This document shows, piece by piece, positions 3,695 through 59,520 of a DNA stretch of 59,918 nucleotides (position 1 is its first letter; each line of letters starts with the position of its first letter). Made by a program: the position numbers and the translations under genes. Source of the DNA: a virus; IMG/VR virus record IMGVR_UViG_3300031825_000013, positions 1-59,918 of that record, one strand, 5' to 3'. Below the pieces are notes generated by a model that searched no databases, was not told where the DNA came from, and saw only the letters and a program-made list of their open reading frames with translations.

Positions 3695-4542
3695 TGGCCA
3701 GAATTCGCACCATCAAGCCCGAGTTCCCGCAGTCCGAAAGCATGGGACGGATAAGCCGCGACGCTCGCCTGACGTTCGTCCTTTCGTGGACGATGGCCGA
3801 TGATTCGGGGAGGCTTCGCGGAAATTCGCGAATGCTCGCGAGCCTTCTTTTCCCCTACGACAACGACGCTCCAGGACTCATCGACGGGTGGCTGGCCGAA
3901 CTCGAGCATGAAGGGTGCATAGACCGTTATTCGGTCGATGGCCAGTCTTACGTCCAGATTCGTAACTGGTTGAATCATCAGAAGATCGATAAGCCCTCCG
4001 CGTCGAAACTTCCTGAATTCAACGAATCCTCGCGAATCCTCGCGAAGCCTCTCGATCATTCGTCGGAGGATCAAGGATCAAGGACCAAGGACCAAGGACC
4101 TAAACCCATTGCCGAGCTGCCGCTCGGCCCCCCGCCGACAGCGGCGGTTCCGCGAGGAACGTCGCGCTTCGCTGCGTTCTGGGCTGCATGGCCCAAGAGC
4201 CCGCGCAAGGTGGACAAGTCCGATTGCTCGAAGAAGTGGGCCCGATCCAATCTCGACGCAATCGCAGACAGGATCATCGCGCACGTCGAAGCGATGAAGC
4301 TGAGCCAGCCGTGGCTCGATGGATTTGAGCCGGCCCCGATGACCTACCTCAACGGGAGTCGTTGGGAGGACCCAATCCCCGACAAGCCCACGAAGTCCGG
4401 TGGCACCGACCTGTGGTGGACGAGCGATGCCGGGATTCAGCGCAAGGGCTCCGAGGTTGGGCTACCCGCGCGGCCTGGCGAAACGAGTTCCAGTTACCGC
4501 GACCGGATCAAGGTCGCGCTCGATCAAACGAGGGCCGCATGA
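3694..4542 (+). CDS. Replisome organiser / replication initiator (O-like), 282 aa
   Basis: The N-terminus MARIRTIKPEFPQSESMGRI...ARLTFVLSWTMADDSGRLR is the winged-helix signature of phage replisome organisers, ending near GQSYVQIRNWLNHQKIDKPS (~residue 100). A flexible linker (~110-150) carries iteron-like DNA repeats, followed by a FAAFWAAWPKSPRKVDK segment and C-terminal region (~155-230) as in DnaT/O-type proteins. It probably binds an origin inside its own gene and recruits the host helicase; no phage helicase or loader gene is seen. It begins at the A of the RusA stop. Confidence 0.8.
   Translation: MARIRTIKPEFPQSESMGRISRDARLTFVLSWTMADDSGRLRGNSRMLASLLFPYDNDAPGLIDGWLAELEHEGCIDRYSVDGQSYVQIRNWLNHQKIDKPSASKLPEFNESSRILAKPLDHSSEDQGSRTKDQGPKPIAELPLGPPPTAAVPRGTSRFAAFWAAWPKSPRKVDKSDCSKKWARSNLDAIADRIIAHVEAMKLSQPWLDGFEPAPMTYLNGSRWEDPIPDKPTKSGGTDLWWTSDAGIQRKGSEVGLPARPGETSSSYRDRIKVALDQTRAA
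4023..4102. repeat. Iteron-like repeats, candidate replication origin
   Basis: Two adjacent tandem arrays lie in the linker of the initiator gene. There are three 10-bp units of cgaatcctcg type (4023-4052) and, after a short gap, five 7-bp units of ggatcaa/ggaccaa (4068-4102). The position is analogous to ori-lambda inside gene O. Confidence 0.6.
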
Positions 4543-4856
4543 ACTGCAAACAAGGCGATCTGGCGATCGTGGTGCATTCGGAGAGCGGGCTAAACGCCGG
4601 GAAGATTGTTCGCTGCGTTCGGTGGGTCGGCACATTGGAGACAAACCCCGCAACCGGGTTTGCGTGGACCCCGGGGGCATGTCACGACTTTTGGGAAATC
4701 GACCCTCCGTTGCTCACTAATCAGCTGCGCAACGGGAAGGTGGTAGCGAAGAATGATCCATTGCCTGTCGTACTCGATTCCTGCCTCCGTCCCATTCGTG
4801 GTGATCTCCTCGACGAAGAAACCGAGCGCGAGTTTGAGCGCGTGGTGTCCGCATGA
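4539..4856 (+). CDS. Hypothetical protein, 105 aa
   Basis: It begins MNCKQGDLAIVVHSESG with an ATGA overlap to the initiator gene. The N-terminal segment looks like a small beta-barrel (GDLAIVV...GKIVRCVRWVG), followed by a DFWEIDPPLL segment. Proteins of this shape are common after phage initiators, but no function is known. Its stop overlaps the next start. Confidence 0.75.
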   Translation: MNCKQGDLAIVVHSESGLNAGKIVRCVRWVGTLETNPATGFAWTPGACHDFWEIDPPLLTNQLRNGKVVAKNDPLPVVLDSCLRPIRGDLLDEETEREFERVVSA

Positions 4857-5185
4857 TCCTCGCTGCCGAACTTCTCGGAGTCCGTCCGGCGGGCCTGATC
4901 CGCGCGGGTAAGCGCCTGGTCGTGCTCTCCGGGCTGCTGGCCGATGAAGTGAAGATCCAGAAGGCGAGGGTGCGAGAGAAGAACCTCAAGTATCGCGCGA
5001 AGATCGCCGCTGATGCTGCCAAGCGCGAGGCTCGGTTGGCCTACATGCGCGAGTGGAGCAAGGCGAACCGCGAGAAGCGCAAAGCCTATCGCGCAAAGTG
5101 GATCGCGCAGAACCGCGAATGGAACCGAAAGTATCAACGCGAATGGGCGCAGCGCAAGCGTGCTCAGAAGGCGGGGGTCGAATGA
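4853..5185 (+). CDS. Hypothetical basic coiled-coil protein, 110 aa
   Basis: Residues 1-35 look globular (MILAAELLGVRPAGLIRAGKRLVVLSG). The remainder is a long, highly basic helix with near-repeats of the form REW..ANREKRKAYRAKW..QNREWNRKYQREW. Nucleic-acid binding is possible from charge alone. It is translationally coupled at both ends (ATGA overlaps). Confidence 0.7.
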   Translation: MILAAELLGVRPAGLIRAGKRLVVLSGLLADEVKIQKARVREKNLKYRAKIAADAAKREARLAYMREWSKANREKRKAYRAKWIAQNREWNRKYQREWAQRKRAQKAGVE

Positions 5186-13991: not shown

Positions 13992-14263
13992 ACGAGAGGG
14001 AACGCATCAAGGCGCTGGAAGCACGCGTGCGGGCGCTGGAAGAACGGCTCGCCGCGACCGAGAGCACGCCGTCCTGGTGGCCGGCCCATCCGTTGATGGC
14101 CCCACGGGGGGCCACTATTTGCGGCAAGGCGCCACCCGGTCCCGCCGTGCAATACACGGATGGGCTAGGTAATACCGGGTACGTCATGTCCTCTTCGTGT
14201 GCGCCCGCGCCCAAGACCAACCGGGACATCAGCCCCCTCGTTACGACCTACCCGCCCCGATGA
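13988..14263 (+). CDS. Hypothetical protein with N-terminal coiled coil, 91 aa
   Basis: MNERERIKALEARVRALEERLA is a short coiled coil. The rest is proline-rich with PAVQYTDGLGNTGYVMS. The ATGA overlap at the start and overlap with terS at the end place it in the packaging operon. Confidence 0.6.
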   Translation: MNERERIKALEARVRALEERLAATESTPSWWPAHPLMAPRGATICGKAPPGPAVQYTDGLGNTGYVMSSSCAPAPKTNRDISPLVTTYPPR

Positions 14264-14850
14264 CCAAGAAGAAGCCCCCCAAGAAGGGGGGGAAGAAGCC
14301 GAAGGCCGGGAACTCGAAGGACGCCGCCCGTAAGCGTCGCCTCGCATTCGTCGAGGCGTACATCGCCAACGGGGGGAACGCAACAGACGCCGCCAAGCAA
14401 GCCGGGTACAGCGCCAAGACGGCCTACTCTGCCGGTGGGCGGGCGTTGAAGCACGTTGAGACCGCGCGGATGATCGCGGAGCGGCAGAAAAAACTCCAAG
14501 AGGCTCATGGGCTTACGACGGATCGCGTGATTCAGGAACTCTCCCGCATTGCGTTCGCGGACCTGCGGAAAGTCTTCGACGACAAGGGGGCGCTGCTCCC
14601 GCCGAACCTGTGGCCCGATGACGTGGCCGCGGCGATGGCCGGTGTTGACGTGGTGGAGATGGCGGGCGGCATGGAAGTGAGCGGCGAGAGCGGCATCTCG
14701 CATGTCCCGATGTACACCAAGAAGGTGAAGCTCTGGGACAAGAACGCGGCCATCGAGAAGGCCATGAAGCACCTGGGGATGTTCGAGAAGGACAACGCCC
14801 AGGCGAAGACGCAATTCGTGGTGCTGGATGCTGCTGACCAGCGGGCATGA
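14260..14850 (+). CDS. Terminase small subunit, 196 aa
   Basis: A lysine-rich N-terminus (MTKKKPPKKGGKKPKAG) is followed by the Terminase_2-type helix-turn-helix LAFVEAYIANGGNATDAAKQAGYSAKTAYSAGGRAL (~residues 28-65). C-terminal residues would contact the large subunit. It binds the packaging site and starts genome packaging. It overlaps terL by four bases. Confidence 0.92.
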   Translation: MTKKKPPKKGGKKPKAGNSKDAARKRRLAFVEAYIANGGNATDAAKQAGYSAKTAYSAGGRALKHVETARMIAERQKKLQEAHGLTTDRVIQELSRIAFADLRKVFDDKGALLPPNLWPDDVAAAMAGVDVVEMAGGMEVSGESGISHVPMYTKKVKLWDKNAAIEKAMKHLGMFEKDNAQAKTQFVVLDAADQRA

Positions 14851-16193
14851 AGTTTTCCCTGACGGACAAGCAGATCGAGGCGCGGGAGTACCTGTCCGGG
14901 GACGCGCCCAACGTGATGCTGTTCGGGGGGTCTCGGTCGGGCAAGACCTTCCTCATCGTCAGGCAGATAATCGTGCGGGCGCTCAAGGCGCCGAAGTCCC
15001 GGCACGCCATCCTGCGGTTCCGGTTCAACCACGCGAAGGCCAGCATCGTGCTCGACACCTTCCCGAAGGTGATGGAACTGTGCTTCCCGGGTGAGCAGTA
15101 CGAGTTCGACAAGACGGATTGGTACGCGAAGCTGCCCGGTGAGAGCCAAATCTGGATCGGGGGGCTGGACGACAAGGAGCGTACGGAGAAGATTCTGGGG
15201 CAGGAATACGCCTCGATCTTCCTGAATGAGTGCTCGCAGATCCCGTGGGCCTCGGCGCAGATGGCGGCTACCCGCCTGGCGCAGCGGGTGAACGTGGACG
15301 TGCCGGGGCTGAAAGCCGACCCGCTCGTGCCGCGGATGTTCTACGACTGCAACCCGCCGACGAAGGCGCATTGGACGTACCGGGTATTCGTGGAGGGGAG
15401 GGACCCCGAGACGAAGCGCCCGATGACGAACCCGGAAGACTACCTCTGCTTCCAGATCAACCCGGGCGACAACCGGGCGAACCTGCCGCCGGGGTATCTC
15501 GAGAAGACCCTCAAGAACATGAGCGCCCGGATGCAACGGCGCTTCCTGCTGGGGGAGTTCGCGGACGCCACGCCCAATGCCTTGTTCTCCCAGGAGGACA
15601 TCGACAAGTGGCGCGTGCTGGACGGGAAACTCCCAGATATGGTCCGCATCGTGATCGCCGTCGACCCCTCCGGGGCTGATGACGAGGACAACGCGGACAA
15701 CGATGAAATAGGAATCGTGGCCGCCGGTCTGGGAACGGACGGCAACGGCTACTTGCTCGAGGACTGCACCGTCAAGGCGGGTCCCGGGACGTGGGGCAAC
15801 GTGGCGACCACTGCCTTTGATCGTCTTGAGGCGGATGTGGTGGTGGGCGAGGGCAATTTCGGCGGGGCGATGGTGAACCAGACGATCCAGGTGGCCCGCC
15901 CCAGAACAAACTTCAAGATGGTCACGGCCAGCCGAGGCAAGGCTGTCCGGGCGGAGCCTTTCTCGGCCCTGTACGAGAAGGGGAAGATCCGGCACGTCGG
16001 GTACTTCCCCGAGCTGGAGGACGAGCTCGCGGCGTTCTCGACCCACGGGTATCTGGCCGACGGGTCCCCGAACCGGGCCGACGCCTTGATCTGGGCGCTC
16101 ACGGAGTTGTTCTCCGGACTGGTGGCCCCGAAGCGCACGAAGGCCCGTGCAGTAACCCCCTGGCGGCCCACGGCTCCGGGCGTGGGGATGTAG
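14847..16193 (+). CDS. Terminase large subunit, 448 aa
   Basis: The ATPase domain has Walker A GGSRSGKT (residues 27-34) and a Walker B-like ASIFLNE (~122-128). The nuclease domain begins near IAVDPSGADD (~270) with acidic metal ligands and continues through VVVGEGNFGG (~331) to SPNRADALIWALTEL. It cuts concatemers and powers DNA entry. Length is normal for a podoviral TerL. Confidence 0.96.
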   Translation: MKFSLTDKQIEAREYLSGDAPNVMLFGGSRSGKTFLIVRQIIVRALKAPKSRHAILRFRFNHAKASIVLDTFPKVMELCFPGEQYEFDKTDWYAKLPGESQIWIGGLDDKERTEKILGQEYASIFLNECSQIPWASAQMAATRLAQRVNVDVPGLKADPLVPRMFYDCNPPTKAHWTYRVFVEGRDPETKRPMTNPEDYLCFQINPGDNRANLPPGYLEKTLKNMSARMQRRFLLGEFADATPNALFSQEDIDKWRVLDGKLPDMVRIVIAVDPSGADDEDNADNDEIGIVAAGLGTDGNGYLLEDCTVKAGPGTWGNVATTAFDRLEADVVVGEGNFGGAMVNQTIQVARPRTNFKMVTASRGKAVRAEPFSALYEKGKIRHVGYFPELEDELAAFSTHGYLADGSPNRADALIWALTELFSGLVAPKRTKARAVTPWRPTAPGVGM

Positions 16194-16856
16194 CAGCTAC
16201 ACGCATGGCGATTATGCCTCGGTGGTTCTAGACCGCTGCGGGCTTAACGGCCCGAGTCGCCAGCCGTGTTGCCGTTCAATGGGGAGGCCCGCTCGAACTG
16301 CCGGTTTGTCCCGGCCCCCGAAAGGGTGAGGGCCACTAGTTCAGCAGTACCCGGCCTAGCCAGCCGGCCCATTCAGAGTCACAGAAAAATAGTTTACGGT
16401 CGGCGCGTCATGTTCCGCAAACTGGCTGGCCCGGCCTGAAGCCGGGAGTTGCGCGCAACGCGGCGGAATGTGTCGAAAGTCTGGTAGCTCCAGACGATGC
16501 GGGTATCCAGCCCCGCCGCCGCCCACCCTTTAAGCCCCCAAAGAACACGACCAAGGAATACCGAGGACGCTGGTTGGCGGTGTACGGGCTCATTACCCGG
16601 CGCTCCTGAAAGGGAGCGCACAGCTCCCCGAGGGCACACGCCTTGGTCAAACCGCCACTATTTCACCGGATTGTTGGCCGGATAAGTCCAGCAACGGGAG
16701 CGGTCCCGCATTAGGCGCAAAGGGTAAGCCTAGACGGATTAGGCGGCAGTTTTACCGGAGCACCCCGCGACAAACCGCAGGTAGTAACGGAAGGGGCCTC
16801 GTGCCCCGCTAATTCAATGGCTCGCTGTGGCGGGCCATTTCCATTTGGAGGGCGCC
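16194..16856 (+). ncRNA. Candidate large structured non-coding RNA (~650 nt)
   Basis: No open frame here looks coding in any frame, yet the interval lies inside a tightly packed late operon. It carries many local inverted repeats: 16222-16236 (one G-U pair), CGGGC/GCCCG (16239-16254), CCC-GAAA-GGG (16317-16326), CCCGGC/GCCGGG (16430-16446), GTTGC/GCAAC (16448-16459), GTCTGG/CCAGAC (16479-16495), GCGGG/CCCGC (16499-16516), GCGCTCC/GGAGCGC (16600-16619), CCGG/CCGG (16666-16681), TAGGC/GCCTA (16712-16732) and GGGGC/GCCCC (16793-16807). Size and density suggest an ornate RNA, as in the GOLLD/ROOL classes, but no known family is recognised. Confidence 0.55.
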
Positions 16857-17132
16857 ATGAGCAAACGATTCATGTGCTGGACCTTCGCTGGCTCCGCGGC
16901 GCTCACCCTCGCTATTGCGATCGTCCCCGCCTTCGCCTTCTCGCCTCAAGAGCTGCTTGCCGAGCGGACCCTCGGGAAGCCCGAGCGCAAGGAGGGCGTC
17001 TGCACCATCAAGGAAGACGACCTTCGGTGGCTGCTCGGGCGAGCTGTGTTGCTCGAGCGCATCGCCTCGAACCTGTACGACCGGCTCAAAGGCTGTAGCG
17101 GAGCGCGCGAGTCGGGACGCTGCGCTCGATAG
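16857..17132 (+). CDS. Hypothetical exported protein, 91 aa
   Basis: The ATG at 16857 follows GGAGGG. MSKRFMCWTFAGSAALTLAI is a signal peptide or anchor, probably cleaved after AFA (~27). The mature part is helical (WLLGRAVLLERIASNLYDRL) with two cysteines. It lies directly after the structured interval. Function unknown. Confidence 0.65.
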   Translation: MSKRFMCWTFAGSAALTLAIAIVPAFAFSPQELLAERTLGKPERKEGVCTIKEDDLRWLLGRAVLLERIASNLYDRLKGCSGARESGRCAR

Positions 17133-17155: not shown

Positions 17156-17683
17156 ATGTCTGGACCCATGCAAACCGTTGGTGGCAAGGTGAACATCAGC
17201 GAAGCCACGTTCACCCGCGAGAACGACACCACGACCTACACCGCGGGCGATGTCATGGCCGCCTCCACGACTGCTGCCGTGGCTCTCGTGTTCGAGGCTT
17301 CTGCCTACCAGTCGGGGGGCTCGGGGATCATCCAGTCCGCCACGATCATCGACGGCGCCTACCAGGCCCTGGGCCTTGCCGCTGATCTGTTCCTGTTCAA
17401 CGCGGAGCCCGCGAGCTTCGGCAACGACAACGCCGCCTTCACCCCCACGGACGCGGAACTGCAAACCCTCGTGGGCATCGTCAAGTTCACCTCGACGGAC
17501 TGGAGCGGCGGGAACCTGACCTCTGGTGCTACCGGGAACGCGGTGCAGCTCGTCACGGCCTCCATCCCGTTCAAGTGCGCGAACGACCGCTCGAAGCTCT
17601 ACGGCGTCCTCGTTGCCAGGAACGCCTACATCCCCATCGCATCGAGCCCGTTCTTTATCCGGCTCCACATCCTCCAGGACTGA
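17156..17683 (+). CDS. Virion structural protein (possible decoration), 175 aa
   Basis: It is a beta-rich protein (TFTRENDTTTYTAGDVMAAS..., LFLFNAEPASFGNDNAAFTPTDAE). The TAGDV motif recurs in small phage head proteins. Position between terminase and portal supports a capsid-associated role. No catalytic motif. Confidence 0.6.
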   Translation: MSGPMQTVGGKVNISEATFTRENDTTTYTAGDVMAASTTAAVALVFEASAYQSGGSGIIQSATIIDGAYQALGLAADLFLFNAEPASFGNDNAAFTPTDAELQTLVGIVKFTSTDWSGGNLTSGATGNAVQLVTASIPFKCANDRSKLYGVLVARNAYIPIASSPFFIRLHILQD

Positions 17684-17686: not shown

Positions 17687-18364
17687 GTGCCTCTCATCGC
17701 CGGCCCGCGCAGGGCGCTCCTCACGCCAAGGGCTCTGCGAGGGGAGCAGTACGTCCGGTCGCTGGCTCCCGCAGCTTGGTTCCGCAAGGGCGCGGCCGTT
17801 GTTGGGACGTGGCCGGATGCATCGGGCAACGCGCGGGACATGACGCTGTTCAACGCGCCAACGCTAAATGCGGACGGGACGGTCGCGTTCAATGGCGTGA
17901 ACCAGTACGGCAAAACGCCCGCGTTCGCCCTCAATCAGCCGGAAACCGTCTACCCCCTGTTCAAGCAGGTCAGTTGGACGAACAACGATGGTATTTTCGA
18001 CGGGAACACATCAGGGACCGGGCTGTTTTACCAAAACGGCGTAACGCCCGATACGCAAATTTTCGCAGGCACGGTCAGCCACGGTACTCCACCTGCCGCG
18101 ATCGGCACGTATGTCGTCGGCGCGTTTGTGTTCAACGCGGCGGCTTCCGTCTCACAGATCAACCTCACATCAACCACTGTCGGCTCCACCATCGGCGCAG
18201 CAAACATGGGCGGATTTACGCTCGGCTGTTGGGGCGATAACACGAAATTTGGAAATATCCAAGTGGCCGAAGTTATCATCTTCGCCGCCGCCCATAGTGC
18301 GGCGCAGCGGGAGACCGTGATCCGCTACCTCGCTTCCGTTGGTTCCGTGGAGCTTGACTCGTGA
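17687..18364 (+). CDS. LamG/concanavalin-like virion protein, 225 aa
   Basis: A GTG start 3 bases after the previous stop. The middle and C-terminus follow the pattern of phage LamG-type domains: APAAWFRKGAAVVGTWPDASGNARDM, ... VAEVIIFAAAHSAAQRETVIRYLAS. Such domains usually bind carbohydrate or decorate virions. It overlaps the portal start (GTGA). Confidence 0.6.
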   Translation: MPLIAGPRRALLTPRALRGEQYVRSLAPAAWFRKGAAVVGTWPDASGNARDMTLFNAPTLNADGTVAFNGVNQYGKTPAFALNQPETVYPLFKQVSWTNNDGIFDGNTSGTGLFYQNGVTPDTQIFAGTVSHGTPPAAIGTYVVGAFVFNAAASVSQINLTSTTVGSTIGAANMGGFTLGCWGDNTKFGNIQVAEVIIFAAAHSAAQRETVIRYLASVGSVELDS

Positions 18365-20544
18365 GGCCCGACATGAAGGACAAGCCCCCGGAGCCGATGA
18401 GTGAAGAGGAGCGATTCGGTCGGCTCAATGCTCTCGGCGTGAGCCTCACCAAGACGCGCAAGATCGCCATTGACGGCCGTGCAGCTTCCGGCATCGAGCG
18501 CTGCTGGATCGAGGACGAGGAGTTCTACGAGGGCATCGACGACCTCAACCGGCACGAGAGTCACAACAACTGGCACACCAAGCCTCCCGGTCAAGCAAAC
18601 CCGCAGGTCTCCTCGAACGAAAGCACGATCTTCGTCAACATCACGCGGCCCTACGTTGACGCAGCGGCGGCGAAAGTTGGGGACATCATGCTCCCCACCG
18701 ACGACCGGCCGTGGAGCCTGTCGGCAACCCCCGTCCCCGAATTGCTGGACATGGCGAAGGGGAAGCTGCCCCAGCCGGTGCAAGATGGCATGGTTGAGAG
18801 CGGGGTCCCTCAAGAGGTGCAGGGCCAAGTTGCCGACATCGAGGCCGAGCAAGCCGCCAAGCTGATCGAGGAGGCCAAGAGCAAAGCCGAGAAGGCCGAG
18901 AAGCGCATCGAGGACTGGATGGTCGAGGGGCAGTGGCACGCCGAAGTCCGGAAGGGCTTGGACGACTGCTGCAAGGTGGGGTCCATGGTCCTCAAGGGAC
19001 CCGTCCCCATGGCGAAGAAGGCCATGATGTTCAAGGACGGCGCCTTGGTCGTGAGCCTGGAGACGAAGCCAGTCTCCAAGCGCATCGACTACTGGAACTT
19101 CTTCCCCGATCCGGCTTGTGGAGACTCCATCCACAACGGCGCGTTCACCTGGGAGCGGGACTTCATCACGCCCAAGACTCTCGAGGCGCTGAAGCTCGAC
19201 GACGACTACCTCGCCCCGCAGATCGACTTGTGTCTTGCCGAGGGCCCGAAGAAAGCCACCGACGCCCGTACACAAACGAGCAAGCACGAGGTAGATGACA
19301 AGGACCTCTACGAGATTTGGTACTTCCACGGGCAAGCCCGGAGGGAGGACCTGGAAGCGGCTGGTTGCAAGTGCAAGGACGACACCGTTTCCATCCCCGC
19401 CATGATCGCCATGGTCAACGATCGGGTCATCAAGGCGCGGCTGAATCCGCTGGATGCCGGGGAGTTCCCCTACGACATCATGCCGTGGCAGAGGTTGAAG
19501 AACCTGCCGTGGGGTGCCGGGGTGGCGAGGCAGATCCGGACTCCGCAGCGCATCGTGATCGGTGGGACGCGGACGTTGATGACCAACGCCGGCCGTGCTG
19601 CTGGTCCCATCATCGTGAAGCTGGGCGGGATCGTGTCTCCCCTCGATGGATCGAACGACATCACGCCCTGGAAGCAGTACGAGGCGACCGAGGGCGCCGA
19701 TGTCACCAAGGCATTCCAAGTCTACGAGATTCCCGACCGGCAAGCCTCCCTCATGGGGGTCATCCAATTCGGCTTGAAGATGGCCGAGGATGTGACGGGA
19801 CTTCCCCTGCTGCTGCAAGGCCAAGCCGGAGCGGCTCCGGAAACCCTCGGCGGGCAACAGCTTGTGGACCGAAATGCTTCTGGAGTGCTTCGCAGAATCG
19901 CCCGGACGATCGACGACTGCGTAACCGAGCCCCACGTCCGCAGGTACTACGCCTGGCTCCTCCAGTACGGCAAGGACGAGGAGAAGGGCGAGTTCGTCAT
20001 CGACGCCAGAGGTTCTACCGCCCTTGTAGAACGAGAGCTCTACAAGAACGAGGTCAACCAACTGCTGGAAGCCTCGCTCAATCCTGCGTTTGGCTTGGAC
20101 CCCGAGCTGGTCATGGCCGAGCACCTGCGGGTCGAGAAGAAGGACCCGAAGAACTTCCAGCTCTCCGAGGAGAAGAAGAAGGCCATGGCGCAGCAGCAGC
20201 CCCAGGCGCCGGATACCTCGCTCGAAGTCGCCAAGATCCGCTCCAAGACCGAGATGGACAAGGCCGTGGTGAATCAGAAGTCCGACATGGCCGAGATTCA
20301 GGCCAAGGCCGAGGACGCGCAGAAGCAGCGCGACCACGAACGGGCCATGTTGAGCATGCAGCTCCAGGTCAAGACCATGGAGTTCGCCGAGAAGCGCGGG
20401 CTCAAGCTGCAAGACGTGAAGGCGCAGCTCGCCAAGACCGTCATGGAGCTTCGCGTGCAGAAGGAAATGGGCGGCACCAACGTCGCCACTCCGAAGATCG
20501 AGCCTCGCGGGAAAGCCCCTGAAGGGCAGGCGTTCGCCCGATGA
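18361..20544 (+). CDS. Portal protein (podovirus type), 727 aa
   Basis: A long portal with conserved core segments TIFVNITRPYVDAAAAKVGDIMLPTDDRPW (~80-110), IDYWNFFPDPACGDSIHNGAFTWERDFITPKTLEAL, PYDIMPWQRLKNLPWGAGVARQIRTPQR and TGLPLLLQGQAGAAPETLGGQQLVDRN. The C-terminal ~150 residues form a coiled coil. Twelve copies would form the channel at the head vertex. GTG at 18361 overlaps the upstream stop; ATG 18373 is the alternative. Confidence 0.9.
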   Translation: MRPDMKDKPPEPMSEEERFGRLNALGVSLTKTRKIAIDGRAASGIERCWIEDEEFYEGIDDLNRHESHNNWHTKPPGQANPQVSSNESTIFVNITRPYVDAAAAKVGDIMLPTDDRPWSLSATPVPELLDMAKGKLPQPVQDGMVESGVPQEVQGQVADIEAEQAAKLIEEAKSKAEKAEKRIEDWMVEGQWHAEVRKGLDDCCKVGSMVLKGPVPMAKKAMMFKDGALVVSLETKPVSKRIDYWNFFPDPACGDSIHNGAFTWERDFITPKTLEALKLDDDYLAPQIDLCLAEGPKKATDARTQTSKHEVDDKDLYEIWYFHGQARREDLEAAGCKCKDDTVSIPAMIAMVNDRVIKARLNPLDAGEFPYDIMPWQRLKNLPWGAGVARQIRTPQRIVIGGTRTLMTNAGRAAGPIIVKLGGIVSPLDGSNDITPWKQYEATEGADVTKAFQVYEIPDRQASLMGVIQFGLKMAEDVTGLPLLLQGQAGAAPETLGGQQLVDRNASGVLRRIARTIDDCVTEPHVRRYYAWLLQYGKDEEKGEFVIDARGSTALVERELYKNEVNQLLEASLNPAFGLDPELVMAEHLRVEKKDPKNFQLSEEKKKAMAQQQPQAPDTSLEVAKIRSKTEMDKAVVNQKSDMAEIQAKAEDAQKQRDHERAMLSMQLQVKTMEFAEKRGLKLQDVKAQLAKTVMELRVQKEMGGTNVATPKIEPRGKAPEGQAFAR

Positions 20545-34388: not shown

Positions 34389-35366
34389 ATGGCTGGCTAT
34401 GGCAACGTGCTTCTGCAAGGGGTGCTTGGGGCCGTCTCTGGAGGGGCGGGGTCCTTGGTGCATGACATGGACCTCGACCGCAAGAAGCAGGACGCGATGG
34501 ACCTGGAGCGGCGCAAGGGAGAGATGGCGCAGAAGCGCCTCAAGTTTCTCGACGATCTGAAGCGCAGCAACGAAGCCGAGACTCGCCAGCGCTCCGCTGA
34601 CTTCTACAAGCAGAACAAGCTCCCGCCCGAGGAAATCCCCGGCGAGGAAGTCGATGAGCAGGGCAACAAGATCGGCGACATCACTGCGGTCTCGGAGCCA
34701 TCCCGCAGGGCGCAGGCGGAGTACTACGCTTCCAAGTCGCTCTTGACCGGAGACAAGGGCATCATCGACTCCGCGCGAGGGGAAGCCAAGGACGTTCGCG
34801 CCGAGGACGAGCAACAACGCAAGGCTGCGGTGGACGAGCGCAGGGCTTCCAACGAGGCCGAGCGCCTGCGTCTCCAAGGTCTGCGGGACGAGGCGAAGTC
34901 CGAAAACGAGCGCAAGCGCCTCGACGCGATGATCGCCAGGCTCAACAAGGGCGAGTCCGGAGAGGGCAAGGAGCCCGCCAAGATCCGCGAGGTCAAGGCT
35001 CTGGCAGAGCTGGCCTTCGGCGGGGACATCGAGAAGGCCACGTCCTTTGCCTATGGCACCAACGCGAAGCCCCGGGCGGAAGCCGTCATGTCCATGTTCG
35101 CCGCGCTCAAGGACACTGACATGGACACCGGCAAGGCCAGCGACCGGATGAAGCGGGCCGAGGAGATGGTGGACGCCCTGCGTGGCAAGGACACCGCCTC
35201 GCGGGGTGGGGTCAAGGTCGGTGGAGAAAAGACCGAGGCGAAAGTCGAAACGAAAGCCGCCCCGAAGGAAGCCTCCAAACCGAAGTCCAAGGCCGAGTAT
35301 GACGCGCTTCCCTCCGGGGCGCTCTACGTCAATCCGAAGGATGGCAAGACCTACAGGAAGCCGTAA
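34389..35366 (+). CDS. Ejection-region internal virion protein, 325 aa
   Basis: Starts MAGYGNVLLQGVLGAVSGGAG (a possible membrane-active glycine-rich helix), then long charged coiled coils (DLDRKKQDAMDLERRKGEMAQKRLKFL; DEAKSENERKRLDAMIARL). It ends YDALPSGALYVNPKDGKTYRKP, a tail motif seen at the C-terminus of internal virion proteins in several podoviruses. It ends on the first base of the giant gene's ATG. Confidence 0.72.
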   Translation: MAGYGNVLLQGVLGAVSGGAGSLVHDMDLDRKKQDAMDLERRKGEMAQKRLKFLDDLKRSNEAETRQRSADFYKQNKLPPEEIPGEEVDEQGNKIGDITAVSEPSRRAQAEYYASKSLLTGDKGIIDSARGEAKDVRAEDEQQRKAAVDERRASNEAERLRLQGLRDEAKSENERKRLDAMIARLNKGESGEGKEPAKIREVKALAELAFGGDIEKATSFAYGTNAKPRAEAVMSMFAALKDTDMDTGKASDRMKRAEEMVDALRGKDTASRGGVKVGGEKTEAKVETKAAPKEASKPKSKAEYDALPSGALYVNPKDGKTYRKP

Positions 35367-38300
35367 TGGCCGACGACTACGAAGTCCGCGGGTGGGACGA
35401 CGAGGTAGAAACTCGGGGTTGGGATGACGAGCCGGAAGGCGGGCTTCTTGCGTCCGCGAAGCAAACCATCGGCTCCACCATCAAGGGGGTAGGCCGGGCG
35501 GCATCGGACTACATCCCCGGCGTGTCTGCCGACAACCCCGTTACCCGGTATGGCCAGGAGATCGTCGACGCCAACCCGACGGCGGTCCATAGCCTCTCCG
35601 ACATCGCCGAGAAGCCCGGCACGGCCATCACGGAGGCCGTAGGCAACGCCGCGCCCCCGATGGCCGGCATGGTCGGGGCCCGGGCCTTGGGCATGGGCAT
35701 CACTGCGGCGGCGCCCTTTACGGGCCCCCTGGCCCCCGCCGTTGCGGCCGTGGGACAGGGCATCGCGTGGCTTGGCCCCCCGGCCATTGCCGCGCTGCCG
35801 TCCTACAGCGGGATTCGGGACAAACAGATCCTCAACGATCCGGCCAACGAAGCCGATGCCAAGGCGAAGGCTGTTGCCGCGCTGGGCGCCGGCGCGGTGG
35901 GCCTGATCGAGAACAAGTTCGGCCCGCAAGAATGGGCCCTGTCGGCCATGACGAAAGAGGGCCGAGCCCAACTGGCCAAGAAGTTCGCTGCCGCCACCTT
36001 GACCGGATCGATCGCCAAGGGCGGCGCCCGCGGTGCGATTGTTGAAGGCTCCGAGGAGCTCGTCCAGAACCCCATCGAGCAAGCCGCGGCCTTCGACAAT
36101 CCCCTGACCCCCGAAAATCTGCGAGACACCGCATTTTCCGGCGCGATGGGCGCCATTGGCGGCGGCGTCCTGGGCGGCGGTGCGGGCGCGTCCTTCCGTG
36201 CCTCGCAGGCCCCTGCCCCCAAGCCCATCGAGCAAGTCGCCGCCGAGGTCATGCAATCCCCCGACCTCGACTCGGCCATCAACGCGGCAGAAGCCGCGAT
36301 CAACGCGCCCGTGCCGGCCGTTGGACAACCCACCCCCGAAGTGTCCACTTCCGAACAAGCGCCCGAAGTGGGTACGATCGCGCCCAACGTGGGCATGCCC
36401 GAACTCTCCGCGCCCACCACGGCGTACAGCGAGCCCGTTGGGGCTCCGATCACCGGGGAGCCTGTCATCGTCGGGGGCGTGGACTACGGCCGCATGGCCG
36501 ACATGACCGAGAAGCAGCTTGAAGCCATCTCGAGACTGGCCCGGGGAGGGAACCGGGAAGCCGCGGCTGCCGAGCTGGAGCGCCGGGCTGCGACCGTCAA
36601 CCAGGAGGAGCCCCGTGCAGATCAAGTACCACAAGATGTTGGGCTGGCTGCGCCCGCTGTGGCGCCCGACCAAGAACCGGCGCCCGTTGATGTGGCGCCT
36701 GTGCCCGCCGCTGTGGAAGCGCCGATTCCTGCTGCCGTCGCTGCACCTGCGCCGGTATCCGAGGCCGCACCTGTAGGGACATCGCCCGGAGACCAACTGC
36801 CAAACGGGTTTCGTGTAGGCCCGCAACAAGGGGAGAAATTCAGGGTCGGCCAAGTGGCAGCTATGGGCGGGGGCGTGCAACTCGAAAAGCGCCTGCCTGC
36901 CGGGACCGTTGCGTCGTTCTTCGTCAAGAAAGACGGCACCCTATTTGAGCCGTCCGTAAACCGGGCGGAAGATCGCTCTGCCATCTGGGTTCCAGAAACG
37001 GCAGAGCGCGGGAAGCAGGCTGAATCCATTCTCAACGAGATGGGCGCGCTTGCGCTTACAGACCCTCGTCGCGCGGAAGCAAAGGCTAGGCTCAAGGCGC
37101 TTGTTACGTCCGCACCTGTAGTCGAAAAGGCTGCAATCGTTGCAGGGAACGCAACAGTTGCGCCAGCCCAGCCCAATCGAACGGGCCCTAATGCGCTTAG
37201 TGGCGATTATCTTGGGCAGATCGTTGACGCCGGCAACAACGCGGAGGCCACCAATGAAAGAGCCGTGGAAGTTCCTGAACGAACCGCCGACACAGCCGCC
37301 GGTCCCACTGACGCCGATGGAGTTCCTCAAGGTCCCGAAGCCGCTGTACCGGGAGCAGAAGAAGAGGGGACCGCACAAGCGCAGGGACCCGTAGCGTTCA
37401 AGGACTTCACCGCCCCCAAGGCGATCAAGAACGCAGACGGGAAGGTCATCGTCCGCAAGGATGAAGTCCGCACGTTCAAGACGGAGAAGCAGGCGCAGGC
37501 TTACTCCAAGAGCAACGCGCTCAAGGGCTATGTCCCACGCGAAACCTCGGACGGGTGGGTGCTCTCGAAGTCGGATCGTGAGCAAAATGATTTTGCTACC
37601 AGGATGGCAGAACAACGCGCACAAGAGGATGCGCTTGGCGCTCGACTCTCAGAGATGAGCGGAGAAGAGATTGAAGCCGAATACCAATCCATCAAGACGG
37701 CAAATGATGCTGTAGAGAGAGCAGCCATCAAGAAGTTTCTCGGCCCCAAAAAACTCGCGGAGTATGACGCTATTACCGGCCGACGCAGAAAAGATGCGTG
37801 GCTAGAAAAGAACATCACCAACGATGCGCAAGATTACATGAATGAGCGCATGCAGCCGGAGGCGTTCGCAGAGCAATTCCGTGGAGCGGCCGGGGCCTTC
37901 GACGAAACCTCTCCCAAGGCCCTCGGTGAATCCATTGCGGTTCTTTCCAAGGATGTTGACAAGCCGGGCTTCATGGCAAGCCCGAAGGGGGTAACGTTCA
38001 AGGCCGCCCTTCGCTACGCCATGGAGCAAGGGTGGAGCATGGATGACGTGCTTTCAGGGATGCGTGCGCGCGCCTCTCGATGGGCCGGAGACGATGCGCA
38101 AGAGCTATTCTCGCGGCTCTTCAAGCGGAGCGATGGCAAGCCTCCCGTCATAGCGAAACAGCCTCGCGCAGAAATTCAGCCAGGACAAGCCGCACTCACC
38201 GTCCAATCCGAATCCGAGATCCGCGCCGACGAGGCTCTCGCCAAGAAGTCCGCAGACGAGAAGGCCAAGCGCGACAACGCGCCAAGCGCGGACGGCTTCG

Positions 38301-41300
38301 TGCTCACGGGTTCCTCCCGCATGGTGGACGAGGCAGAAGCGAGGGGGCAGGGGCCGCTATTCTCGCGCGCCGAGCCCGTATCGCTAGGCGAGTTCTGGCA
38401 GGACTACGCCAGCGGAGACACCGCATTCCAGTACGGGAAGAGCGATTCCTCCGACATCGAGCAGATCGCCAAGGACTACCAGGCCGACTCAAGCAAATGG
38501 CGAGTTGAGAAGACCCAACGCAGTCAGAGGGTCCCCGGCTCGTTTGACCCCGAAATGGTCGAGATCATCAACATTGACGCCAAGGACGGGGATGGCAGGT
38601 TTCGGCCCTTCTTGGAAGTTCATCCCGATCCTGCTGGCGATCCGAACGCGGTGTTCATTCGCATCAACGAAACCGGCTCCTGGCCCAAGAGAATGGATGG
38701 GGCGCTCGCCTACCAGATGGCGATGGCTTGGACGGCAAACAACGGGCTGAAGCTCAACCCGGACACCGACCTGCTGCCGGTAAACCGCCTGCGTAGGACC
38801 GAAGCGATGATCTCCGCCATGCTCAAGTACGGGGAGAAGGCGGGGCAGATTCGCCCGCATCATGAGCAGTACGTCGGACTGTTGGACGAGGCTGACTGGA
38901 ACAGCATCCAGAAAGGCGGGGTGGACGGCTACTCGGCCACGTTCCCGGCCGGCGTCAAAAAGACGCTCGAACGGCTTCGGGATGCCTTGTGGGTAGACCC
39001 CGAGAAGGGGGCCACAAAGGCGGAGAAAAGTGACATTTTCCGTAGAAATCTTGAGGGGCTTCTGATAGCCTCAAGTGAACTGGCCCGCCGTCGCGTGCCG
39101 GCTCTCAATGAGTTGAAGGTCAACGATGCTGGCGAGATTGAAAACACGGTTACAGGCGAACGCTCAAATCTGCGGCGAACTGCGGACATGGGGGTTCTGG
39201 GCCTACCTGCCTCCGCGCTGGAAAGAGGCGTTGGCCGCACTACGGGACTCCGCGTGGTTGCTACGCTTTCGATCCAACGCGGATTTCATCCAACAGCATC
39301 CGACATACTGGGCGCACCGAGCGGCAAGCAACGCCTACCCGACGCCGAAGGCGGGGATGGTGTTCTGGCTCAAGGTCTTGGAGGGCGCCTTCAGGTTGAC
39401 CCTAGTCAGGCTCGGGTACTTGCCGCCGCGCTAGGCGAAAAGGCGCTCTACAGCCGAGAGGCTCCGCGCGAGTTCCGCCGCACTCTCGCTATGGAATCCG
39501 GCATCGCCGTCAAGGAGGCGCAAGCCGTCCTTGATTCCCTCGGAGTCGAGGGTGAAGCAGTAGAGTCCCCCGACGACCTTCCCAAGAATCTCCTCCGGCA
39601 GATCGAGAGCAAGGGTGCCAAGGGCGACGTGCGCGGGGTGTTCGATCCCTCGACGGGGAAAATCTACGTCATCGCCAGCCGGGTCGAAAACCGCGACCTA
39701 GCTGCGTTTGTGGCGCTGCATGAGAGCGCGCACCGAGGACTTCGGAGGCTCTTCGGGGTGGAGCTTGATCCAACCCTGCGCGACATCTACAACACGAATT
39801 CCAACGTCAAGACGAAGGCGAACGTGCTTCGCTCCAAGCACGATTTGTCCATCGAGGAGGCGACCGAGGAAGTCATCGCCGACCTCGCCAAGAGGGGCCA
39901 GGCGCAGAAACTCGTCGGGTGGGACAAGTTCGTCGCGTTCATCAAGAAGTGGCTCGCCAATCGAGGGTTCAAGGTCGAGTGGACGGACACGATGGTCGAA
40001 GTCCTCGCGGGGGCGGCTGCGGAGGTTGGCAAGAAAGGCCCGACCGTGTTCACCGGGGAGGATGCGAAACGGCTCAACCTCGGCGCCACGAAAGAGAAGG
40101 ATGCAGAGGACGGGCCGCGCCTGTCCCGTGGTCGGCCCAAGTGGGTAGAAAACGGCTCCGCAGAACTCAAGTCGGCCGCGTCGAAGATCGACACCTACGC
40201 GCCGAACAAGTCGTTCAAGGAAAAATTCGCCGAGCTGCAAAAGAACTGGGCCGACCGCGCCATCCAGGAGGTCTTTGACCCGTACATCGCGCTCAAGAAG
40301 CTCACGCCCAACGGGTACATCCTGGCGCGGATGGTGAAGTCGGCAGACACCTCGCTCGAGGCCGCGCTGCGCTTCGGGAAGCCGAGACTCGCCGATGATG
40401 GCTCCATTGTCGGGGACCTGGACATGAAGGGCTTCCTCGGCCACATGAGCGAGTTGAACGGGGAGCATGACCGCTTCTTCATGTGGGTGGCCGGGAACCG
40501 CTCCGAAAGGCTGATGCTTGAGGGCAGGGAACACCTGTTCTCGGCCGACGAGATCAAGGCCATGAAGAACCTGATCCGCGAGCAGGGACCGAACGACAAG
40601 TGGAAGGGCGCCGGCTCTAGGCCGCAAGCCTACGCGAAGGCTGCGGAAGCGCTCCGGGCGTACAACCGCGCGTTCATGGACATTGCCGAAAAAACCGGCG
40701 AGATCAACCACGAGTCTCGCGTTCTGTGGGAGCACGACTTCTACATCCCGTTCTTCCGCGTCGACGAGGACATGACGATTCAGGGTCCGTCCCGTGTGAA
40801 AGGGCTTGTGCGGAACGAAGTCTTGAAGAAGCTCAAGGGCGGCACCGAGCCCCTCGGGGACTTGCTCGACAACACCATCCGCAACTGGCAGCACGTCCTT
40901 TCCGCGTCTCTGGCGAACCAGGCGGCCAAGACCGCGCTCAACGCCGCTGTTGATGCGGGAATCGCGGTAGAGGCTGACGAGGCCACGGCGAAGCAACTGG
41001 AGAAGGCCGGGAAGCCGACCGCTGGAGCCACCTACGTCATGGACGATGGCGAGCGGCATTGGTACACCGTGGGCGACCCGTTCGTCCTGGAGGCTATCTC
41101 CGCGCTCGAGACCCCCTCGATCAACTGGGCGGGGATGAAGCTGCTGCGCCAGGCCAAGCGCGTCTTGACGACCGGGGTTACAGCCGCTCCGCCGTTCCGC
41201 ATCCGCAACCTGATTCGGGACTCCTCCACGGCTGTCGCGCAGAATCAGATGTCCTACAACCTCGTCAAGAACGTGTGGGAGGGCTACAAGCACACCAACC

Positions 41301-42667
41301 CCGAAAGCGCCACCTACGCGCAGGCCATGTTCGGGGGCGGGATCATCCGCTTCGGAAACATCGACGATGGCAAGCATGCCGAACACGCGAAGCGCCTGAT
41401 CCTCGATGGCGTCGAAGATCGCACCATCCTCGACACCCCCACGAAGGTACGGGACGCCCTGAGCAAGTGGTGGGACGTGTACCAGGAGAACGGGGACCGC
41501 TTCGAGAACGTCAACCGGATGTCGCTGATCGAGCAGCGCAAGGCTGCTGGCGCGACGAATCTGGAAGCCATGTTTGCCGGCCGCGACTCGATGGACTTCA
41601 CGCTCATGGGCGCCAACAAGGGCATCCGCTTCCTCGCGCAAGTCGTTCCGTTCCTAAACGCCCGATTGCAGGGCCTCTATAAAACGGGCCGCGCAGTGCG
41701 CGAAGATCCGAAGCGGATCGGCTACGTCACTGGCGCCCTAACGCTCGCCTCCATCGCGCTCATGCTCGCCTACAGGGACGATGACGAGTGGAAGAAAAGA
41801 GCCGACTGGGACCGCGACACGTACTTCTGGTTCAAGATTGGCGATGTCGCATTCCGCATCCCGAAGGGCTTTGAGTTGGGCGGGCTGGCGACACTCGCGG
41901 AGCGCGGCCTTGAGCTACTGATTTCCGACGAGATGAACGGCAAGCGGTTCGCAGAGAGGCTGTGGTACTTCGTCGGGAACACGCTCTCCCTCAACCCCAT
42001 CCCGCAGCTTGCGAAGCCGATGGTGGACCTGTACGCCAACACGGACAGCTTCACCGGCCGGCAGATCGAAACCCGCGGCATGGAGAACCAATCCAAACCC
42101 GAGCGAGTCTCTCGTCGCACGACTCTTGTTGCGAAGACCCTGGGCAAAGCGGGGAACGTGACGCAGCTCTCCCCCGTGCAAATCGATCACCTGATCCAAG
42201 CCTACTTCGGGTGGCTCGGAACCCACGCCGCCATGACGGTTGATGTGATGGCGGAGCCGTTCCTCGAGGTGCCGAAACCGGCCCGCAAGATCGGTGACGT
42301 GTTCGTGGTCGGGGACTTCGTGAAAGACCTGCCATCGAGCCAGAGCCGCTACGTCGAGGACTTCTACAAGCAGGCGAAGAAGGTTCACGAGGTCATGGGC
42401 GACTTGAAGCAAGCCCGCGACACCCGTGACGCTGCCAAGGTGCAGCAGATCCTTGAGGACAAGCGCGACGAGGTATCGCTCCGATCCTTGTATTCCAGCG
42501 CCGAGCGGACCATGACCGACATCAACCGCAAGATTCGCGTGATCGAGCGGTCGACCGCTTCTTCCGACGAGAAGCGGGCGCGTATCGACGAGTTGAATGA
42601 GCGGAAGAACCGGCTCGCGGCGGTTATTGCGCGCCGAACGCGAGAGCGGAAAGCTGCAACGCAATAA
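35366..42667 (+). CDS. Giant polyvalent ejection protein with HExxH motif, 2433 aa
   Basis: By far the longest gene. The N-terminus has a WDD duplication (RGWDDEVETRGWDDEPEGG) and hydrophobic Ala/Gly segments (~95-145, ~265-285). Low-complexity linkers run ~300-460 and ~600-680. An HESAH zinc-metallopeptidase-like motif is at residues 1452-1456 (AAFVALHESAHRGLRRLFG). The C-terminal region ~2080-2330 (AQVVPFLNARLQGLYKTGRA...DTYFWFKIGDVAFRIPKGFE) matches the LPD38-type domain of phage polyvalent proteins. It is probably packaged and injected to protect or process the incoming genome. Bcep22-like phages carry an even larger counterpart. Confidence 0.85.
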   Translation: MADDYEVRGWDDEVETRGWDDEPEGGLLASAKQTIGSTIKGVGRAASDYIPGVSADNPVTRYGQEIVDANPTAVHSLSDIAEKPGTAITEAVGNAAPPMAGMVGARALGMGITAAAPFTGPLAPAVAAVGQGIAWLGPPAIAALPSYSGIRDKQILNDPANEADAKAKAVAALGAGAVGLIENKFGPQEWALSAMTKEGRAQLAKKFAAATLTGSIAKGGARGAIVEGSEELVQNPIEQAAAFDNPLTPENLRDTAFSGAMGAIGGGVLGGGAGASFRASQAPAPKPIEQVAAEVMQSPDLDSAINAAEAAINAPVPAVGQPTPEVSTSEQAPEVGTIAPNVGMPELSAPTTAYSEPVGAPITGEPVIVGGVDYGRMADMTEKQLEAISRLARGGNREAAAAELERRAATVNQEEPRADQVPQDVGLAAPAVAPDQEPAPVDVAPVPAAVEAPIPAAVAAPAPVSEAAPVGTSPGDQLPNGFRVGPQQGEKFRVGQVAAMGGGVQLEKRLPAGTVASFFVKKDGTLFEPSVNRAEDRSAIWVPETAERGKQAESILNEMGALALTDPRRAEAKARLKALVTSAPVVEKAAIVAGNATVAPAQPNRTGPNALSGDYLGQIVDAGNNAEATNERAVEVPERTADTAAGPTDADGVPQGPEAAVPGAEEEGTAQAQGPVAFKDFTAPKAIKNADGKVIVRKDEVRTFKTEKQAQAYSKSNALKGYVPRETSDGWVLSKSDREQNDFATRMAEQRAQEDALGARLSEMSGEEIEAEYQSIKTANDAVERAAIKKFLGPKKLAEYDAITGRRRKDAWLEKNITNDAQDYMNERMQPEAFAEQFRGAAGAFDETSPKALGESIAVLSKDVDKPGFMASPKGVTFKAALRYAMEQGWSMDDVLSGMRARASRWAGDDAQELFSRLFKRSDGKPPVIAKQPRAEIQPGQAALTVQSESEIRADEALAKKSADEKAKRDNAPSADGFVLTGSSRMVDEAEARGQGPLFSRAEPVSLGEFWQDYASGDTAFQYGKSDSSDIEQIAKDYQADSSKWRVEKTQRSQRVPGSFDPEMVEIINIDAKDGDGRFRPFLEVHPDPAGDPNAVFIRINETGSWPKRMDGALAYQMAMAWTANNGLKLNPDTDLLPVNRLRRTEAMISAMLKYGEKAGQIRPHHEQYVGLLDEADWNSIQKGGVDGYSATFPAGVKKTLERLRDALWVDPEKGATKAEKSDIFRRNLEGLLIASSELARRRVPALNELKVNDAGEIENTVTGERSNLRRTADMGVLGLPASALERGVGRTTGLRVVATLSIQRGFHPTASDILGAPSGKQRLPDAEGGDGVLAQGLGGRLQVDPSQARVLAAALGEKALYSREAPREFRRTLAMESGIAVKEAQAVLDSLGVEGEAVESPDDLPKNLLRQIESKGAKGDVRGVFDPSTGKIYVIASRVENRDLAAFVALHESAHRGLRRLFGVELDPTLRDIYNTNSNVKTKANVLRSKHDLSIEEATEEVIADLAKRGQAQKLVGWDKFVAFIKKWLANRGFKVEWTDTMVEVLAGAAAEVGKKGPTVFTGEDAKRLNLGATKEKDAEDGPRLSRGRPKWVENGSAELKSAASKIDTYAPNKSFKEKFAELQKNWADRAIQEVFDPYIALKKLTPNGYILARMVKSADTSLEAALRFGKPRLADDGSIVGDLDMKGFLGHMSELNGEHDRFFMWVAGNRSERLMLEGREHLFSADEIKAMKNLIREQGPNDKWKGAGSRPQAYAKAAEALRAYNRAFMDIAEKTGEINHESRVLWEHDFYIPFFRVDEDMTIQGPSRVKGLVRNEVLKKLKGGTEPLGDLLDNTIRNWQHVLSASLANQAAKTALNAAVDAGIAVEADEATAKQLEKAGKPTAGATYVMDDGERHWYTVGDPFVLEAISALETPSINWAGMKLLRQAKRVLTTGVTAAPPFRIRNLIRDSSTAVAQNQMSYNLVKNVWEGYKHTNPESATYAQAMFGGGIIRFGNIDDGKHAEHAKRLILDGVEDRTILDTPTKVRDALSKWWDVYQENGDRFENVNRMSLIEQRKAAGATNLEAMFAGRDSMDFTLMGANKGIRFLAQVVPFLNARLQGLYKTGRAVREDPKRIGYVTGALTLASIALMLAYRDDDEWKKRADWDRDTYFWFKIGDVAFRIPKGFELGGLATLAERGLELLISDEMNGKRFAERLWYFVGNTLSLNPIPQLAKPMVDLYANTDSFTGRQIETRGMENQSKPERVSRRTTLVAKTLGKAGNVTQLSPVQIDHLIQAYFGWLGTHAAMTVDVMAEPFLEVPKPARKIGDVFVVGDFVKDLPSSQSRYVEDFYKQAKKVHEVMGDLKQARDTRDAAKVQQILEDKRDEVSLRSLYSSAERTMTDINRKIRVIERSTASSDEKRARIDELNERKNRLAAVIARRTRERKAATQ
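36614..36776 (+). CDS. Possible overprinted ORF in the giant gene, ~53 aa
   Basis: In the +1 frame a GTG at 36614 follows AGGAGG with good spacing and encodes a basic, Trp/Arg/Pro-rich peptide (MQIKYHKMLGWLRPLWRPTK...). The main frame here is a low-complexity Pro/Ala/Val linker. Such composition also arises by chance in GC-rich DNA, so this is tentative. Confidence 0.3.
37254..37394 (+). CDS. Possible overprinted ORF in the giant gene, 46 aa
   Basis: In the +1 frame an ATG follows GGAG (GGAGGCCACCAATG) and reads MKEPWKFLNEPPTQPPVPLT...FLKVPKPLYREQKKRG. The main frame at this place is a Glu/Ala/Gly-rich linker. The peptide looks less random than most alternative-frame products, but it is unsupported by homology here. 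Confidence 0.35.
   Translation: MKEPWKFLNEPPTQPPVPLTPMEFLKVPKPLYREQKKRGPHKRRDP
39126..39434 (+). CDS. Possible overprinted ORF in the giant gene, 102 aa
   Basis: In the +1 frame, MLARLKTRLQANAQICGELR continues to WGFWAYLPPRWKEALAALRDSAWLL and FWLKVLEGAFRLTLVRLGYLPPR. It looks more globular than the main frame, which here is rich in Gly, Leu and Arg (GLGGRLQVDPSQARVLAAALG). AAGG lies 8 bases before the ATG. An ancient frameshift or insertion is another reading. Confidence 0.35.
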   Translation: MLARLKTRLQANAQICGELRTWGFWAYLPPRWKEALAALRDSAWLLRFRSNADFIQQHPTYWAHRAASNAYPTPKAGMVFWLKVLEGAFRLTLVRLGYLPPR

Positions 42668-48222: not shown

Positions 48223-48474
48223 TCACTCCTTCGGGCTTGTTGATTGCAGCGCGGCGTGAACCTCGGCAGCATCGCGCACCTTCTGCGTGTCCATCGCGGC
48301 CCACTCGGCGGGGTAGGGGAAATCATTGGTCTCCCCGTACCAGTCGCGCCGAAACTTCGCGGCCAGCGCGTAGTGATCGCCGTCGTCTAGGTACACGTCA
48401 CCGGGCATGGGATCGCTCTCGACGGCACAGAGAGCCACGCGGATACCGTCAACGGTGCGAATGCGGATGCTCAT
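48223..48474 (-). CDS. Hypothetical protein, 83 aa
   Basis: MSIRIRTVDGIRVALCAVESDPMPGDVYLDDGDHYALAAKFRRDW is a compact beta-rich domain seen in many phage early regions without known function. The start uses the CAGAGGTGACGCATGAGC junction. Confidence 0.72.
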   Translation of the reverse strand: MSIRIRTVDGIRVALCAVESDPMPGDVYLDDGDHYALAAKFRRDWYGETNDFPYPAEWAAMDTQKVRDAAEVHAALQSTSPKE

Positions 48475-48818
48475 GCGTCACCTCTGTTGGCGATTTCCAG
48501 CAGTACGTCTGCGTGGCACGGATGGTCAAGCGGGCAGAAGCAAGCGAGGTTCTTGCCGCCGAGCTTTTGAAGCGCCGCGAGCAACTTGCGACGACGGACG
48601 CTCATCGGCCCGGCCTTCTCGCCCAGGTATGCGTCCAGCGCATGCTCATCAACTAGCCATGTACGAAACAGGGTTACCGCCTGCTTCGCGCTTATCGGCC
48701 CGACCTTCCACGGATTGCCGAATATGCTTGGCCTCGCCACGCTCACCGTGTTCGGCGGCATCTTCCAGCCCTTCTTGCGCGAGCGTTGGACGCGCACCGG
48801 CTTGGTCGTCTCGCTCAC
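48471..48818 (-). CDS. DUF4326 protein (copy 1), 115 aa
   Basis: The GTG start at 48818 overlaps the previous stop (GTGA). SETTKPVRVQRSRKKGWKMPPNTVSVARPSIFGNPWKVG and KLLAALQKLGGKNLACFCPLDHPCHADVLLEIANRGDA define DUF4326; a Cys-x-Cys...Cys cluster lies near the end. Biochemistry is unknown. A paralogue sits at 59185-59520. Confidence 0.85.
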   Translation of the reverse strand: MSETTKPVRVQRSRKKGWKMPPNTVSVARPSIFGNPWKVGPISAKQAVTLFRTWLVDEHALDAYLGEKAGPMSVRRRKLLAALQKLGGKNLACFCPLDHPCHADVLLEIANRGDA

Positions 48819-53205: not shown

Positions 53206-53487
53206 TCAGCAGATCACCGCGAACACTTCCGCTTCGCGCATCACCAGCAGCTCCTCGCCGTCGATCTTGACGGTGGCGCCGGAGTATTTGCCGAGCAGGA
53301 CGCGATCGCCGACCGAAACCGACATGGGCTCCAGATTGCCGCTCTCGGACAACTTTCCGGGGCCGACGGCGATCACTTCGCCCTGGTCGGGCTTCTCCGG
53401 GTCGGGAAGCAGGATTCCGCCCTCGGTGACTTCCTCGGGCTTGATGCGCTTGACGACGATGCGGTCGTGGAGGGGGCTGAGGTGCAT
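53206..53487 (-). CDS. groES: GroES-type co-chaperonin, 93 aa
   Basis: Full length for Gro[47 protein letters not shown], with mobile-loop GGILLP (~23-28), [34 protein letters not shown]. It would cap a host GroEL ring; no GroEL gene is present. It lies between KTSC and the coiled-coil protein of the early operon rather than beside capsid genes. Confidence 0.93.
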
Positions 53488-59188: not shown

Positions 59189-59520
59189 GCGTCACCTCTG
59201 TTGGCGATTTCCAGCAGCACGTCGGCGTGGCAGGGCTTGTCGGGCGGGCACCAGCAGGCGAGGTTTTTGCCGCCCAGGTAGAAGCGGATGCTCTCGCGCG
59301 TGAACATGAAGCGCTTTCCAGCGCGGAGCTGCCCTTGTGGACGGGACACCATGCGTCGAAAGCGGCGCACCGCTTCCTTGGCGTCTGGCACGCCGAGCAT
59401 CCCGATCCGCCACGGGTTGCCGAACGCGAACGGCCGCGCCACGCTCACCGTGTTCGGCGGCAACTTCCATCCCTTCTTGCGCAAGAGTTGCACGCGCACC
59501 GGCTTGGTCGTCGCGCTCAT
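59185..59520 (-). CDS. DUF4326 protein (copy 2), 111 aa
   Basis: MSATTKPVRVQLLRKKGWKLPPNTVSVARPFAFGNPWRIG and GGKNLACWCPPDKPCHADVLLEIANRGDA. Start at 59520 is set by ATGA overlap with the DUF7666 gene. Paralogue of the gene at 48471-48818, with a different middle (RRFRRMVSRPQGQLRAGKRFMF). Confidence 0.85.
   Translation of the reverse strand: MSATTKPVRVQLLRKKGWKLPPNTVSVARPFAFGNPWRIGMLGVPDAKEAVRRFRRMVSRPQGQLRAGKRFMFTRESIRFYLGGKNLACWCPPDKPCHADVLLEIANRGDA

Follow-up and report, generated by a model that had tools for sequence, protein, structure and literature searches.

The window, by which we mean the whole stretch of DNA analysed (a virus record of 59.9 kb, 59,918 nt), carries the gene for the terminase small subunit at 14260 to 14850, followed, with a four-base overlap, by that for the large subunit (terL), and the rightward head genes come after the terminase genes. 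The terL stop codon (16191 to 16193) is separated from the ATG at 16857 by 663 bases (Table 1), the longest uncoded stretch in the late region. An earlier note on this DNA had described the late genes as otherwise tightly packed, a description that suits the exceptional length of this interval but overlooks the gaps of 120 to 180 bases between other late genes of the window. The same note rightly placed the end of the interval just before a good ribosome-binding site (RBS). The next gene, however, is not that of the portal, as had been stated, since three ORFs (the 91-residue one of Table 1 and those at 17156 to 17683 and 17687 to 18364) precede the portal gene at 18373 to 20544. The first of them, ORF 16857, has no PHROG or Pfam match and no relative among the viral contigs. 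A consensus scan of the interval found no promoter-like and no terminator-like site; given also its position in the rightward late operon, the interval is most simply regarded as part of the late transcript.

Table 1. Features at and around the gap downstream of terL (window coordinates).
Feature	Position	Strand	Remarks
terL, terminase large subunit (448 aa)	14847..16193	+	phrog_979, E 1e-66; Pfam Terminase_6C; relatives in 109 viral contig stretches, best 69% identity
Non-coding interval, candidate structured RNA or untranslated part of the late transcript	16194..16856	+	No coding potential; no Rfam match; fold z about -2; four CTAG words
5' domain, predicted three-way junction, best-supported substructure	16199..16269	+	ACACG/CGTGT, TGGCGATT/AGTCGCCA, two inner hairpins
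Predicted long-range helix	16295..16752	+	GAACTGCCG (16295-16303) / CGGCAGTTT (16744-16752); P 0.89 in wider context
Predicted 8-bp hairpin with GAAA loop	16600..16619	+	Probability 0.97
Predicted 3' hairpin just 5' of the RBS	16816..16839	+	AATGGCTCGC/GCGGGCCATT; P 0.99; without poly-T tail; no terminator by consensus
Shine-Dalgarno GGAGGG of ORF 16857	16848..16853	+	Predicted mostly paired; unpaired probability 0.08-0.23 across contexts
ORF of 91 aa, orphan	16857..17132	+	Signal-peptide-like N-terminus (by eye)

Both strands of the interval were scored with a codon-usage log-odds model derived from the long ORFs of the window itself. The best ORF reached 2.5 over 30 codons and every longer one was negative on either strand, compared with scores of 17 to 222 for the flanking genes. 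In the six frames, each of about 220 codons, we counted 9, 5, 4, 10, 8 and 6 stops, which is random-like for the composition, and the reading as a decayed gene was rejected, as no frame has depleted stops. Furthermore, Pfam returned no family for the six read-through frames, and tblastn of the three forward frames against phage proteins gave no match. Neither codon bias, nor a homologous protein, nor a depletion of stops thus points to an intact or recently decayed gene; it follows that the interval is non-coding on both strands, and the gene-free stretch of some 650 bases reported in the earlier note is real.

With regard to known RNA families, no Rfam 15 family reached its gathering score anywhere in the window, and at E <= 10 the interval drew only chance-level matches; the Infernal check that had been proposed therefore returned no known family there, GOLLD and ROOL included. 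GOLLD is a phage RNA of several hundred nt that often lies near tRNAs, and ROOL RNA is often found near tRNA islands (PMC12286853). The interval resembles GOLLD (RF02032) as a candidate phage RNA of several hundred nt, and it resembles ROOL (RF03087), a phage-encoded noncoding RNA with a model of 574 positions, in that the counterpart gap of a related phage holds tRNAs. However, neither model matches the window at E <= 10 (for ROOL in a single-family search without positive control), so that the likeness in size on which the earlier note had drawn carries little weight, and a candidate pseudoknot in the interval does not rise above shuffled sequences. Moreover, neither ARAGORN nor Rfam detects a tRNA or tmRNA in the window, and the int-alpA model (RF02996) scored 12 candidates there, none with E <= 10. 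A group I intron, another kind of structured RNA that phages carry at lengths of a few hundred nt, had been judged less likely in the earlier note, and we concur: terL ends upstream of the interval and can be aligned along its length with its relatives, so that no gene is interrupted, and as far as the Rfam intron models can reveal a conserved catalytic core (P3-P8, P7, guanosine site), none of them matches the interval at E <= 10. An intron is thus unlikely.

The folding of the interval as a whole exceeds chance only in part, as judged from predicted structures. Its minimum free energy (MFE) gave z scores of -2.3, -1.96 and -2.3 against shuffles in three runs, in one of which it was lower than in 98 of 100 shuffles; among 79 further tiles of this phage, each of 663 bases, 4 (about 5%) equal or surpass the interval relative to their shuffles, the reverse strand is about as strongly folded as the forward one, and the mean structural entropy is ordinary. 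The density of hairpins (at least ten inverted repeats), which had been put forward as evidence of structure, is mostly what a GC content of 62% would lead one to expect, with 6 perfect stems of 6 or more bp within 40 nt versus 4.5 +/- 2.5 in shuffles, and 7 of 7 or more bp within 150 nt versus 6.6. As for the loops singled out in that note, the GAAA-capped hairpin is recovered (Table 1), whereas the hairpin loops of the MFE structure include no UNCG tetraloop at all. Adenine makes up 38% of the unpaired positions, a share exceeding that of 92 of 100 shuffles. An H-type pseudoknot (16549 to 16556 with 16641 to 16648, and 16575 to 16581 with 16651 to 16657), with the candidate pairings GACCAAGG/CCTTGGTC and TGGCGGT/ACCGCCA, was discarded because 61% of shuffles contain an equivalent.

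Two signals stand above chance, namely, the 5' three-way junction and the count of CTAG words. The 5' domain, 71 bases long, starts six bases past the terL stop codon, and its predicted pair probabilities are 0.95 to 0.99 with and without flanking sequence. A 77-nt segment spanning it has a z score of -3.97, a level reached by 0.2% of 1497 window tiles; since the boundaries were picked after the fold had been seen, we take this value as supportive rather than conclusive. CTAG occurs four times in the interval, compared with 0.48 occurrences expected at the window's rate and 2.2 from the base composition, and elsewhere in the window it is found 28 times in 50 kb of coding DNA and 11 times in the uncoded DNA outside the interval (9.2 kb). 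The suppression of CTAG is thus absent from the interval, an exploratory observation that constitutes a second, independent signal. Loss of CTAG suppression occurs in rRNA and other RNA genes. Among the other predicted elements, the long-range helix of Table 1 has a competing alternative (CGGTTTGTC at 16302 to 16310 with GACAAACCG at 16769 to 16777), whose probability is 0.03 in the wider context.

Relatives of the interval were sought at several levels. The viral contigs yielded 109 confirmed TerL relatives, 80 of which were kept, and 21 portal relatives, and no sequence related to the interval was found in them; the genome contigs yielded a single distant TerL locus. Against 46 whole records of phages with a related TerL or portal, the interval gave chance matches of 14 to 27 bases only; blastn returned one 25-base match among phages (E 0.7) and none among plasmids. 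In 398 genomes of one bacterial phylum, a sample arbitrary with respect to the host, there was a single 25-base match (E 9e-4, about 0.4 expected by chance), none of the matches listed by exact-pattern scans of the viral contigs with five patterns had flanking similarity to the interval, and a covariance model built from the 5' domain of this one sequence, run against 75 loci, recovered only the window itself. Thus, at the level of sequence comparison, no relative of the interval was found in phages, plasmids, some 400 bacterial genomes or the 46 related records.

In the majority of TerL relatives, terL is followed within tens of bases by the start of another ORF, and in one phage whose TerL is not detectably related (L090), but which has ORF 17156 and the portal in common with the window, about 10 bases separate terL from the homologue of ORF 17156. 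(The longest uncovered run after terL, a crude measure, was uninformative, since even the interval of the window is covered by chance ORFs.) Considering this tight junction together with the orphan status of ORF 16857, the interval and ORF 16857 look like an insertion, probably a joint one, at a site where noncoding RNAs are sometimes accommodated. In particular, the closest TerL relative (L001, 69% identity) has tRNA-Thr, tRNA-Pro and tRNA-His genes in its terL-portal gap, at 1962 to 2197; the window shares with it a filled gap, although not the tRNA cluster that fills it. In a second phage (L093) and its twin (L094), whose small terminase, portal and major head protein are related to those of the window, about 900 uncoded bases separate terL from the next gene (4025 to 4960 in L093). 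This gap contains an int-alpA-like RNA (28.6 bits, E 0.0016, under the gathering score) with two further copies of the motif, the repeats lying at about 4534 to 4603, 4603 to 4660 and 4679 to 4735, and tandem repeats of 9 and 10 bases directly 3' of the stop codon. An int-alpA RNA would thus be a neighbour by position, occurring in this gap and after the portal of another relative, but it measures 71 nt and its model does not match the window. Taken together, the tRNAs and the int-alpA-like repeats suggest that this phage group has a landing site for noncoding RNAs at the junction of terL and portal, and a focused search at this junction would be worthwhile.

The gap in L093 was also considered as a distant homologue of the interval and rejected: three to four short colinear matches were found (best E 0.007 for the pair), 13 of 300 shuffles did equally well under BLAST-like scoring, and the motif shared by the two had no third member among the matches listed in the scan. 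As separate observations, an int-alpA RNA scoring 40 bits, above the Rfam gathering score, lies at 4924 to 4986 in a TerL relative (L073), shortly past the portal gene in the late region, and in a more distant relative (L074) eight tRNA genes are clustered upstream of terL, at 84 to 1374.

The functional RNA proposed in the earlier note is still the best single reading of the interval, although the hairpin evidence adduced for it is close to chance, and on balance we favour an untranslated RNA segment with a function of one kind or another. The more specific form of this reading, to which we would give about an even chance, makes the interval a stretch of the rightward late transcript that is untranslated and in part structured, was inserted with ORF 16857 and serves as a noncoding RNA or as a stabilising or processing spacer. 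We infer that the interval is transcribed, processed and functional, along the following lines. The phage would have acquired an RNA module and the small orphan gene jointly, in the space separating terL from the head genes, which in some relatives holds tRNAs or other noncoding RNAs. The module would be transcribed along with the late operon, as neither a promoter nor a terminator was seen at its ends, and its fold would comprise a compact three-way junction on the 5' side, beside the terL stop codon, and a GC-rich body. It may then either be released as a stable noncoding RNA by cutting of the late transcript, or act in cis as a spacer that protects or processes the transcript where it passes from terL to the head proteins, which are needed in abundance.

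Only a few large phage RNAs of the GOLLD and ROOL sort have been described, and none has an assigned function. It is possible to hypothesize that the interval represents an undescribed class of large phage noncoding RNA of about 600 to 650 nt, analogous but unrelated to those two, expressed late and carried as cargo beside the terminase, even if we hold this narrower proposal to be unlikely. If true, a further unrelated class of large RNA at a defined, tightly packed locus would offer a target for comparison and for clean deletion.

Among the alternatives, the one that survives best, while still rather unlikely, is a cis-acting leader, that is, a long 5' untranslated region through which ORF 16857 and the head genes behind it would be regulated in translation or stability, its structure sequestering the RBS until this is freed. 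The interval does end at the RBS, the Shine-Dalgarno sequence is predicted to be mostly paired in all contexts, and no terminator or promoter separates the interval from the downstream genes. However, such predicted occlusion is shared by several other late genes, 4 of 18 having an unpaired probability of 0.21 or below, and no known riboswitch or leader family of Rfam matches the interval. Moreover, the helix tying the 5' part to the RBS varies with the chosen ends: a closing helix (16270 to 16293 with 16829 to 16854) that hides the RBS in the isolated interval, with a terminal duplex energy matched by 2% of shuffles, dissolves once about 100 more flanking bases are included, and was therefore set aside.

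A second alternative, which we regard as unlikely, is that the interval has no selected function and is a relic or filler, long decayed or never coding, that recombination left behind at an insertion-tolerant junction. Stem density at chance, the share of tiles that reach the whole-interval folding, the similar folding of both strands, the random-like stop counts and the lack of conservation in our searches would all agree with it, whereas some 660 idle bases would usually be lost from a compact phage genome, the 5' domain is predicted to be strongly folded, and the CTAG count is unlike that of the rest of the genome. A DNA-level site next to the terminase genes, such as a packaging (pac or cos), recombination or replication signal, is very improbable, for although the interval adjoins terL and does not code, it has no iterons or ordered direct repeats, relatives do without it, and packaging sites usually lie upstream, within the small terminase gene or close to it.

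Apart from the untranslated RNA segment that we favour for the interval, the window presents some further features. The late region ends with a single ORF of 2433 codons (35366 to 42667), and a small protein encoded at 53206 to 53487 resembles, by eye only, a GroES-type co-chaperonin. Finally, two similar leftward proteins (48471 to 48818 and 59185 to 59520) have in common the N-terminal motif KPVRVQ..RKKGWK.PPNTVSVARP and apparently derive from a duplicated gene.
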